NCBI GenBank assembly: GCA_020850535.1
Contig: JADZEM010000092.1
Coordinates: 1 to 34,104 of the forward strand
Length of the DNA: 34,104 nucleotides
Direction: 5' to 3'
DNA from: Chloroflexota bacterium
Lineage (GTDB): Bacteria; Chloroflexota; UBA6077; JACCZL01
This document shows positions 5,402 through 34,100 of this stretch, in pieces (position 1 is the first letter of the stretch; each line of letters begins with the position of its first letter). Below the pieces are notes generated by a model. That model was not told where the DNA came from and did no database searches. It saw nothing but the letters and a program-made list of their open reading frames with translations. The translations under genes and the position numbers were made by a program.

Positions 5402-5553
5402 TGTCATCCTGAGCGAAGCGAAGGACCTCACCCGCTGACCGTCACCTCTCGCGTCACTGGGTGAGGTACCCGCTTCTATGAGCATCATGGCGGCGGGCAT
5501 GCCGTCAACTGTCGCGTCAGCGGGTGAGGTCCTTCGCTTCGCTCAGGTTGACA
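5402..5553. repeat. Long inverted repeat of the CCTGAGCGAAGCGAAGGACCT family
   Basis: The arms 5408-5439 and 5516-5547 are perfect 32-bp complements, extendable to 38 bp with one mismatch (5402-5439, 5516-5553), separated by 76 bp. It lies in the 280-bp gap between the two glycosyltransferase genes. Shorter related units occur at 13055-13085 and, more diverged, at 28463-28820, so this is a dispersed repeat family. The unit is of a kind I recall as very common in GC-rich bacterial intergenic DNA. Confidence 0.8.
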
Positions 5554-5610: not shown

Positions 5611-7770
5611 GTGAGTACCCCGCAGGCGCGAGACTTCCCGCGTGAACCCCTGGAGGCGGCCGGCTCGCCGGCGGCGGCCCGGGCGGCCGTGCGGGGCGGC
5701 GGATCGCTCGGCGTGGCGGGCCTCGGGCGCTGGGCGGACATCCTTGCGCCGCTGCTGATCGTGGCGGCTGCGCTGCCGATGCGCCTCGCCAACATCGGCA
5801 GCTACAGCGGCAAGGGCGACGAGGGCATCCGCGCCGAGCAGCTGCTGCTGATGGCCGCCGGCTTCCGCCCCGTCAAGGAGGTGTTCGCCTCGCAGGGGCC
5901 GCTCTCGCTCGACATCTTCTACCCGTTCTACCTGCTGCTCGGGCAGACCCTGGCTGGGGCGCGCCTCGCCGTGGTGGTCTGGTCGGTACTGTCGGTGCTG
6001 GCCGTCTACGCGACGGCGCGGCTGGTGGGTGGACGGGTCGGTGGCTGGATGGCTGCCGCGTTCACCATTGCCAGCCCGACGTACCTGAAGAACTCGCGGC
6101 TGGCGCTGGTCGAGATCCCCGCGATCTTGCCGGCCATCGTGGCGCTCGGGGCGGCCCTGGCCTACCAGCAGCGTCGAGAGCGGCGGTGGCTGGTGGTCTC
6201 GGCGGCGGCGCTGGCGCTGGCATTGGCGATCAAGCCGATGATCGTGGCGGTCGTGCCGGCAGTCGGGCTGGCGCTGCTGCTGGCGCACCTGCCTGCGCGA
6301 ATCAGCCCCCCGAGCCCTCCCCCGCACGCGGGAGAGGGGAGCACTCCCCTCTCCCGCGTGCGGGGGAGGGCTCGGGGGTGGGGGGCTCTCGTCTCCGTCG
6401 GGCGTATCCGCAGCTTCATGATGGACGTCCTGATCTACGCGGCCGTGGCTGGCGCGATCCTCGGCGTCATCGTGGTGTGGGTCGGGCCGACGGAACTGTA
6501 CGATCAGCTCGTTCGCTACCGGGTCGGTTCGCGGGCGGCTGAGGGCTGGTCGTTGGCCGATAACTGGGACATGCTCTGGGGGGAGCTGCAGTGGGATCAG
6601 CCGGCATTCTTTGCGCTCGGCGCGCTCGGCGGGCTGATCGCCCTGGCGCTCCGTCCACGGGCCGGCCTGCCGCTGCTCGCCTGGGGCATCCTCTCATTCG
6701 CCCTGCTGCTCATGTACTCGCCGCTCGGGATCAAGCACGCGGCGCTGCAGATCCCGCCGACCGCCCTGCTGGCCGGTATCGGCCTCGGGCTGCTGTGGCA
6801 GTGGGTCGCCCGGAGCCGTGATGCCCGCACGTTGGGTGCGCGGCGGCCGGCCGTGACGGGGCTCCGCTGGGCGGCTGTGGGCCTGTCGGTGCTGGTGGTT
6901 GGGGCCTACGGATTGACCCTGCCGACCGTCTTCGCCAAGGATCAGCAGGCGATGACCGTCGGGGACCTCGGGGCGGACCCGCCGTACCCGCAGGAGAGCC
7001 TGCTGATCCAGTCGCTCACCACGCCAGCCGACTTCATCCTGGTGGACGATCCGTACCTGGCGTTCCTCAACGGACGGAAGATGCCGCCCTGGCTGGTGGA
7101 CACGTCCTATTTCCGGATCCGGTCGGGCGCCCTGAGCGGCGCGGACGTGGTGGCGCACGCCGAACGCCACCACGTCCGTCTGATGCTCCTGGCCAGCGAC
7201 AACCTGCGCCAGTTGAAGAAGTTCGCGGACTGGGCGGATGAGCGGTTCGTCGTGGTCAAGATCGACGAGCGCTCCAACCGAAAGGACCGCGCCCTGTATC
7301 TCGCGGAGGACGCTGACCTGACGGCGGCCCGGGGGGCGGTACGCGCGGCCATTCCCGGCACGGTTGCCGTCGATGGCACGCTGGCAGGTCAGATCAGGGT
7401 CAGCAGCTACGCGCTCGACGCCGAGTCGGTGCGGGCCGGCGGCACGGTCGGGCTGACCGTCGAGTGGGAGGCTGCCGGCCCGATCCCGCTCGACTGGCGG
7501 CAGGTCACGTTCCTGCGGGACCGCTCGGGGCAGATCGTGGATCAGACCGAGCGCTCGTTGAGCGGCGGCAGCGGCGGCACCTCGACCTGGACGCCGGGCC
7601 GCTGGGTGTTCCGGTCGCTTGGCCTGCCGATCCCGGCGAAGACGCCGCCCGGCGAGTACACCGTCGGCGTGGGCCTGTACGACTCGAAGGCGCGGAAGCT
7701 GGCGACCGTGACGGCCGGTTCAGGCGTGGGCGGCGAGGAAGTCCGTCTCGGGACGATCCGCGTTCGGTAG
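5611..7770 (+). CDS. GT39-like (ArnT/PMT-type) membrane glycosyltransferase with in-frame palindrome
   Basis: This 719-residue protein resembles lipid-linked-sugar glycosyltransferases of the GT-C fold. It has about ten or more hydrophobic helices between residues 40 and 460, and an early extracytoplasmic loop with the acidic motif GKGDEGIRAEQ, where this family keeps its catalytic acid. A C-terminal region (~585-719) looks like an extracytoplasmic beta-sandwich with PGEYTVGVGLYDSKARKL. A 72-bp perfect palindrome at 6307-6378 inserts about 24 residues (PSPPPHAGEG...) between two helices. An earlier in-frame start at 5524 lies within the inverted repeat; GTG 5611 is preferred because of the adjacent TATACT. 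It likely glycosylates cell-envelope components; the substrate is unknown. Confidence 0.8.
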   Translation: MSTPQARDFPREPLEAAGSPAAARAAVRGGGSLGVAGLGRWADILAPLLIVAAALPMRLANIGSYSGKGDEGIRAEQLLLMAAGFRPVKEVFASQGPLSLDIFYPFYLLLGQTLAGARLAVVVWSVLSVLAVYATARLVGGRVGGWMAAAFTIASPTYLKNSRLALVEIPAILPAIVALGAALAYQQRRERRWLVVSAAALALALAIKPMIVAVVPAVGLALLLAHLPARISPPSPPPHAGEGSTPLSRVRGRARGWGALVSVGRIRSFMMDVLIYAAVAGAILGVIVVWVGPTELYDQLVRYRVGSRAAEGWSLADNWDMLWGELQWDQPAFFALGALGGLIALALRPRAGLPLLAWGILSFALLLMYSPLGIKHAALQIPPTALLAGIGLGLLWQWVARSRDARTLGARRPAVTGLRWAAVGLSVLVVGAYGLTLPTVFAKDQQAMTVGDLGADPPYPQESLLIQSLTTPADFILVDDPYLAFLNGRKMPPWLVDTSYFRIRSGALSGADVVAHAERHHVRLMLLASDNLRQLKKFADWADERFVVVKIDERSNRKDRALYLAEDADLTAARGAVRAAIPGTVAVDGTLAGQIRVSSYALDAESVRAGGTVGLTVEWEAAGPIPLDWRQVTFLRDRSGQIVDQTERSLSGGSGGTSTWTPGRWVFRSLGLPIPAKTPPGEYTVGVGLYDSKARKLATVTAGSGVGGEEVRLGTIRVR
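6307..6378. repeat. 72-bp perfect palindrome inside a coding sequence
   Basis: The 35-bp arms 6307-6341 and 6344-6378 are perfect complements around a 2-nt loop. The arms begin CCCCCGAGCCCTCCCCCGCA. Length is divisible by three and the reading frame of the glycosyltransferase passes through without a stop. A related but longer palindrome is intergenic at 10134-10252. Confidence 0.9.
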
Positions 7771-9941: not shown

Positions 9942-10400
9942 CGGGCTTCGCCTCAGCGCAGCGTGGCGGTCCGGCCCCGTTCGCGTGCAGGGAACGCACT
10001 GCCCACCACAGGGAACGACTGAGCGGCGCGGCGAGCGCGCGATTCCCCTTCGCGCTTCGCGGTGCTACGGGCCGAGTACGTCCGCAACGACCCGTCTGAG
10101 GCGGGCCACGCCGCGCGCCACCCGGTCGTCGGTAAAGGCCCTCACCCCCCAACCCCCTCTCCCTGTGCGCGGGCGAGGGGGAGACACACGAGGCTGTCGT
10201 TGCTCCCCCTCGCCCGCGCACAGGGAGAGGGGGTTGGGGGGTGAGGGCCTTTGCCACAGGAAATCATCAATCTTCATCAACCCCCGACTGCCCGCCTCAC
10301 CACGGTCTGGGAACGCCAACGAACGCGCGATCGCCCTGCGTCACTGCCCGGGTCTCATGCGCCGTCCGGCAGCGCGTGGTATCGTCCCGCGGGAGGCCGG
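9942..10400. other. Divergent intergenic region holding a large palindrome
   Basis: This 459-bp gap separates the minus-strand FG-GAP gene from the plus-strand MFS gene, so it should hold both promoters. Its main content is the palindrome at 10134-10252. A further in-frame extension of the MFS frame back to 10251 is rejected because the GTG at 10401 has a good ribosome binding site. No other gene is supported. Confidence 0.6.
10134..10252. repeat. 119-bp palindromic element (50-bp arms)
   Basis: The arms 10134-10183 and 10203-10252 are 50-bp complements (AAAGGCCCTCACCCCCCAAC at the outer end) around a 19-nt loop. Translated, it gives the TPQPPLPVRGRG-type peptide that often appears in spurious annotations, a sign of a widespread dispersed palindrome. 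It shares its C-rich outer arm and GCGCGGG/GCACGCGGG centre with the in-gene palindrome at 6307-6378, suggesting one family. Confidence 0.9.
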
Positions 10401-28462: not shown

Positions 28463-28820
28463 AGGTGTGTCATCCCGACCGAAGCGAGGAACGAATCTCC
28501 TTGTTGTCGTCATCCCGACCCCATTCGGCACGCTCAGGGCCAGCTACGCGAGGAACGAGCACACCCCTCCGTCATCCCGACCGCGGCGCGGAACGAGCGG
28601 AGTGGTGGGATCTTCTCCTTCTGTGGCGTGAGGAAGATCCCTCGACTGCGTTCGCATGCTCACTTCGCTCGGGATCACGGTGGAGGGAGCATGCGAACGC
28701 CGCTCGGGATGACGAGGGGTGGCGCACGCTCACTCCGCTTGGGATGACGGTGGAGGGAGCACGCCTTGCCCTGAGCCTGCCGAATGGGCCACTCCGCTCG
28801 GGATGACGGGGCGGAGTGGG
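28463..28820. repeat. Cluster of degenerate GTCATCCCGA repeats in both orientations
   Basis: Three forward units of the form GTCATCCCGACC...GAGGAACGA (from ~28472, ~28512 and ~28573) are followed by four inverse units ending CGCT[CT]GGGAT[GC]AC (to ~28675, ~28711, ~28748 and ~28808). The whole could fold into long imperfect hairpins. It fills the gap between the binding-protein and permease genes, with no coding frame supported. The layout suggests repeated insertion of one dispersed element into its own copies. Confidence 0.75.
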
Positions 28821-33887: not shown

Positions 33888-34100
33888 GGGCGATTGCATG
33901 TTGATGTCGTCGTGCGGCGGCGTCGGGGCTTGAAAGCCCCGCCTACCGTCATTCAGTCGCTGCGCGACGCGCCAGTCGCACCAGTGCCTGCCGTTCCCGG
34001 CGGCCGTCGCGCAGCGACTGAATGCGTGTAGGCGGGGACTTCAGTCCCCGACCGCCCGTTCCATGATGCTTCGGGGACACCAATGAACATGCAATCGCCC
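33888..34100. repeat. MITE-like element, complete copy B (inverted relative to copy A)
   Basis: The element is about 213 bp, bounded by GGGCGATTGCATGTT (33888-33902) and its perfect complement (34086-34100). It contains the same internal features as 145-347 in reverse order: GGGGCTTGAAAGCCCC, a stem with GTCGCTGCGCGAC/GTCGCGCAGCGAC arms, then GGGGACTTCAGTCCCC. Sequence between the stems differs from copy A while the arms are kept, which suggests selection or gene conversion on the folded structure. Confidence 0.8.

Follow-up and report, generated by a model that had tools for sequence, protein, structure and literature searches.

A probable inverted pair of BoxC/PIT/TM-type repeats read in frame in a variable loop of a PMT_2-like glycosyltransferase from a Chloroflexota bacterium

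The palindrome and its host gene

The window analysed here, a stretch of 34,104 nucleotides from the draft genome of a Chloroflexota bacterium (assembly GCA_020850535.1, contig JADZEM010000092.1), carries a gene for a PMT_2-like membrane glycosyltransferase that is interrupted, without loss of its reading frame, by a long perfect palindrome. The features at the locus are as follows.

5611..7770, plus strand: host gene, PMT_2-like membrane glycosyltransferase (Pfam PMT_2, E 2.5e-12; orthologues; ORF opens at 5524)
6304..6387, no strand: whole symmetric element, two head-to-head units (from sequence, inverted repeat, and profile scores for both units)
6307..6341, minus strand: left arm, a reverse-strand unit with hairpin block and shortened G-rich third block (nhmmer 6339-6315, E 0.00042)
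6344..6387, plus strand: right unit, CTCCCCTCTCCC - GCGTGC - GGGGGAGGG - CTC - GGGGGTGGGGGG (nhmmer 6346-6382, E 3.9e-5; regular-expression match)

The first 29 codons of the ORF that opens at 5524 derive from another repeat. An inverted pair at 5402-5553 (TGTCATCCTGAGCGAAGCGAAGG..., with 38-nt arms separated by 76 nt) extends into these codons, so the start at 5524 is doubtful; it probably lies too early, and the GTG at 5611 would be the likelier start. The PMT_2 match covers residues 135-257 and stops just short of the insert, while hydrophobic segments at 223-241 and 302-320 flank the residues encoded by the palindrome. The first-pass annotation, which had placed the palindrome between two hydrophobic helices of a membrane glycosyltransferase, is thus borne out on both points, although we call the protein glycosyltransferase-like. 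When the structure of the window protein was predicted by itself, without an alignment, the mean pLDDT was 43.9, and the model was set aside.

An inverted-repeat search recovered the 72-bp palindrome at 6307-6378 exactly as it had first been described: two arms of 35 nt each (6307-6341 and 6344-6378), 100% complementary and separated by a 2-nt gap. Its length corresponds to 24 codons in frame with an open host ORF (residues 262-285 of the 748-aa reading, PPSPPPHAGEGSTPLSRVRGRARG), and the earlier claim of an in-frame insertion of about 24 residues therefore holds as well. Adding the outer AG...CT ends gives a symmetric element of 84 nt, or 28 codons, in which the tail of the left unit is 6 nt shorter than that of the right (AGCCCCCC-GAG against AGCCCCCCACCCCC-GAG on the other strand). 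Fifty shuffles of the loop DNA gave a top inverted-repeat score of 10 against 35 for the palindrome, so chance is not its source. The RNA fold predicted for a 112-nt stretch has an energy of -99.6 kcal/mol (z -10.1, 0/200 shuffles as good), and the DNA fold predicted for the 72 nt a value of -53.6 (z -12.2).

A high-copy repeat family

A single unit, present twice and head to head, makes up the palindrome. The unit has the blocks CCCTCTCCC / GGGAGAGGG / GGGTGAGGG: a pyrimidine block, followed after a short loop by a purine block and, beyond a linker, by a G-rich third block. The right unit shows the three-block anatomy of a triplex motif, whereas the third block of the left unit is shortened. 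The genome-wide scan for further copies that the first-pass annotation had proposed places the palindrome in a family, since the strict pattern GGGAGAGGG-N0-9-GGGTGAGGG has 74 + 75 = 149 matches in the genome and its backwards control 0 + 0; the same pattern is present in 57 of the 101 genomes surveyed. A variable-gap pattern, whose backwards control was higher (138 vs 55), served to list places and not as a measure of enrichment. One short pattern match, at C75:168, was rejected as a family member, being without the repeat tail. A canonical intergenic member lies in the window itself.

10131..10255, no strand: canonical intergenic family member, 53-nt arms, 98% complementary, 19 nt apart (inverted-repeat and profile searches)

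In the fetched part of the genome the unit profile found 142 units in 90 places, which are not a random sample but were gathered through likeness to the window element, from pattern lists and from contig stretches; a reversed-sequence control, run with an earlier profile, gave 0 matches. These places comprise 51 '-+' pairs, one '--' pair and 38 singles, so that the head-to-head arrangement accounts for 51/52 two-unit clusters. Spacers of the 51 pairs fall at 6-14 bp (4), 21-25 bp (38), 70-76 bp (8) and 126 bp (1); the compact class (n = 6) includes two pairs of which only one half was detected by the profile and which were added by eye. All three blocks in order are matched by 109 units in the fetched stretches, the right unit of the window among them. 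At one predicted pair of triplex-partner positions they are A/A in 99, G/G in 5 (window included) and of other kinds in 5. As the G/G units are all of one loop type they may go back to a single event, and they look like one subfamily; triplex pairing may serve only as a lead.

Arms resemble each other within pairs throughout the family. For 47 pairs the mean edit distance was 3.6 within a pair (17 identical) vs 5.6 between pairs, a value as low as the former being reached in 0/10000 permutations. The perfect symmetry of the window element is therefore a family trait, and the recent arrival offered earlier as one reading of its perfect pairing need not follow. Such likeness is consistent with duplication of whole pairs or with repair by template switching. 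In the window element the symmetry is probably maintained by template switching in the hairpin, with one arm rewritten from the other, or else goes back to the origin of the pair as a unit.

Copies within genes

Using a codon score trained on the long ORFs of the genome, we found 12 of the 76 places not at contig ends to lie within one ORF, vs 452 of 1000 random positions, which means that genes are avoided by the family overall. On contigs C6, C23, C97, C102, C158, C163, C164, C165, C166 and C209 repeats lie about 250 bp or less from the ends. The compact pairs behave otherwise: all six are in ORFs, vs 2 of 32 spaced pairs, both of these at ORF ends (Fisher p 2e-4 at 5/6, by codon score alone, and 1e-5 at 6/6, in a small non-random sample in which loci L090 and L049 were assigned by hand, L049 being counted from its 720-aa ORF). 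As had been anticipated by analogy with the palindromic elements of Rickettsia (RPE), copies thus occur in frame inside genes, here in six ORFs of partly unrelated proteins: three PMT-like membrane proteins, UvrC, a penicillin-amidase-family protein and a CobB-CbiC fusion. In the two further PMT-like proteins the PMT_2 match was below the cut-off (L056) or just above it (L066), and the sixth compact pair lies in the CobB-CbiC linker of a 720-aa ORF. In-frame repeats in several genes imply that repeats dispersed through a genome can end up encoding protein.

In the penicillin-amidase-family ORF (L090, 7737-10514, minus strand) the in-frame repeat comes shortly before the sequence GSNQW, which contains the nucleophile serine, preceded by an excised spacer; the link is much shorter in the relatives L190 and L191. 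Single units are also read through in longer ORFs at L080, L079, L076 and L050, L079 encoding a PPDK_N / PEP-utilizers protein. Two related genomes were sampled for the motif: in 188 kb of genome G004 0/7 motif places were in an ORF, and 33 kb of genome G001 contained none.

The same loops in related proteins

Orthologues of the host protein are 62.5% (G001, aligned part) and 61% (G002) identical to it. Measured from anchor to anchor, the loop has 95 residues in the window protein, 74 in G001, 59 in G002 and 55-73 in the other 14 homologues, so that residues were gained in the window protein. The first-pass annotation had expected an orthologue alignment to prove insertion by an exact 24-residue gap; that proof failed, the loop being 36 residues shorter in G002 and 21 in G001, because loop length varies among orthologues. 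No empty site was found at the nucleotide level among the nearest orthologues (about 62-65% identical in protein); they are too diverged, and the loop too variable, to fix the edges or the event exactly. One contig scan returned only a 44% relative, a Chloroflexota MAG.

The window palindrome itself is absent from the loops of the relatives. Among 17 PMT-like loops taken from three genomes, inverted repeats beyond those of 50 shuffles occur in 3: those of the window protein, the G001 orthologue, which has an imperfect inverted repeat of its own unlike that of the window in sequence, and a G001 paralogue (locus L041, G001:C595, ORF L041_-1_2_1407), whose palindrome is perfect, with 21-bp arms, a 2-nt loop and yet another sequence. 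This recurrence of different palindromes in one loop, the very stable hairpin predicted and its position between hydrophobic segments would all suit a hairpin under selection in its host gene, where it would slow ribosomes between the helices or regulate the mRNA and owe its perfection to that selection. We consider this quite improbable, since a palindrome of such kind is lacking in 14/17 PMT-like loops, the G002 orthologue included, since the element type also occurs in unrelated soluble proteins (UvrC, penicillin-amidase family) and mostly between genes, and since arm symmetry is common to the whole repeat family and not special to the host gene.

UvrC offers a parallel. The UvrC of the window genome (L122, 4232-6472, minus strand) and its G001 counterpart (L209) carry different palindromes in the same loop, the one in G001 being perfect with 26-bp arms. 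These are the only 2 of 21 genomes with a long perfect palindrome there (scores 25 and 26; shuffles up to 10). In G004 the loop has triplex-motif-like stretches, recognized by eye, with an inverted-repeat score of 12 vs 11 in shuffles, and the remaining 18/21 loops score only 5-9. Separate insertions at one loop, in UvrC as in the PMT-like proteins, are the simplest reading; the alternative is one old insert that has since diverged or been overwritten.

That the palindrome is known here from a draft assembly, and that many copies lie at contig ends, where repeats break assembly, could point to an assembly or sequencing artefact. Yet the ORF runs through the repeat pair at six loci, palindromes occur in the same loops of independent genomes, and a family already described in E. 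coli K-12 (PMC4666352) has a matching unit, all of which makes an artefact highly improbable.

Mobility

The Y1 transposase (PF01797) had 0 matches in the window genome, whose completeness is 96%, while controls were positive in 5/14 genomes; mobility would therefore proceed without a known agent. Target-site duplication, the MITE criterion, gave no signal in 37 pairs (mean 1.49 vs 1.27 permuted, with 34/200 permutations as high). Doublets of a repeat set head to head at a favoured spacing are the arrangement described for REPINs (PMC3116915), and the pair might accordingly be a REPIN that owes its movement to a REP-associated tyrosine transposase from the same or a lost strain. Y1 transposases are also slightly commoner in genomes rich in the motif (23/42 vs 20/59, p 0.043, uncorrected for kinship). 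Against this, PF01797 has no match in G001 and G002 either, among the 23 genomes richest in the motif (50 matches or more) it is present in 12 and lacking in 11, and no GTAG or CGTC tag was seen at the unit ends when these were read by eye. We regard a REPIN so moved as improbable.

The window also holds a second palindromic family, at 6-313 and 33922-34052, with arms of about 48-51 nt and units with GTAGGCGGGG...CCCCG. It resembles GTAG-tagged REPs, though the genome is without a Y1 transposase, and has further copies at L099, L113 and L118. A cluster of imperfect inverted repeats lies at 28507-28818.

Interpretation

The palindrome is probably an inverted pair of the BoxC/PIT/TM type, read in frame as part of a variable loop between two membrane segments of a PMT_2-like glycosyltransferase, a tolerated insertion of a known type of repeat. 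This reading draws on the three-block unit and its many copies, the head-to-head pairing, the open frame, the shorter loops of relatives and the similar in-frame pairs of five other genes. The pair would have arrived as a unit by some mobility route, and would have survived through the kept reading frame and a Pro/Gly/Arg-rich linker tolerated by the loop, its effect on the protein being likely close to neutral. A wider suggestion, put forward tentatively and with more doubt than belief, is that compact pairs are the coding form of the triplex-motif repeat and spaced pairs the intergenic one, with different palindromes reaching the same UvrC and PMT-like loops repeatedly in this family of Chloroflexota and the repeats acting as a recurrent source of protein linkers.

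If the reading as a tolerated insertion is right, a repeat described as intergenic in E. coli K-12 can become protein, and does so in a phylum rich in it (57/101 genomes by the strict pattern). These loci, among them two or more loops that carry palindromes in more than one genus, would form a set for following both the spread of short palindromic repeats that have no known transposase and the tolerance of proteins towards them.

Comparison with known systems

Literature searches turned up no report of the triplex motif inside coding sequence or from Chloroflexi, although one may exist, and none linking a compact form to genes; the link between compact pairs and coding sequence thus appears new to us, and rests on six cases. 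The closest known element is the BoxC/PIT/TM_ECO intrastrand-triplex motif of E. coli, whose blocks are listed in Table 1 of PMC4666352. The family described here shares with it the blocks CCCTCTCCC-loop-GGGAGAGGG-linker-GGGTGAGGG and the inverted pairs. In E. coli K-12, however, that paper has the motif always intergenic, with 5 inverted pairs among 23 motifs, whereas all six compact pairs here, that of the window included, are within ORFs (most other places being outside them), pairs outnumber singles among the fetched places, and the unit has a longer loop (GCGCACA or GCGTGC).

The likeness to REPINs (PMC3116915) lies in inverted doublets of a short high-copy repeat, which in REPINs act as one unit; the differences are that a RAYT was not found in the window genome and that the compact form occurs in coding sequence. 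Intragenic GTAG- or CGTC-tagged REPs come nearer in behaviour: as reported in the main text of PMC3733652, in-frame dimers, found in many species, encode 20-30 residues, with a bias towards repair genes and many of them in excision-repair genes, and recB of two Xanthomonas species carries different REPs at about one site. That main text names UvrABCD, although the word uvrC is absent from it. Our pairs resemble these REPs in being in-frame dimers at a recurrent loop and differ from them in unit sequence and in that the GTAG/CGTC tag was not seen.

Palindromic elements of Rickettsia and Wolbachia (RPE and WPE) are likewise in frame and tolerated in unrelated protein genes (PMC10969869, PMC2229807, PMC4224334). 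The in-frame palindromes in unrelated genes of the window genome share this much with RPE and WPE, a likeness in kind. They differ from RPE in size, RPE being 105-150 bp, and in their host, which has a GC-rich genome of 7.65 Mb and not the reduced genome of an endosymbiont.
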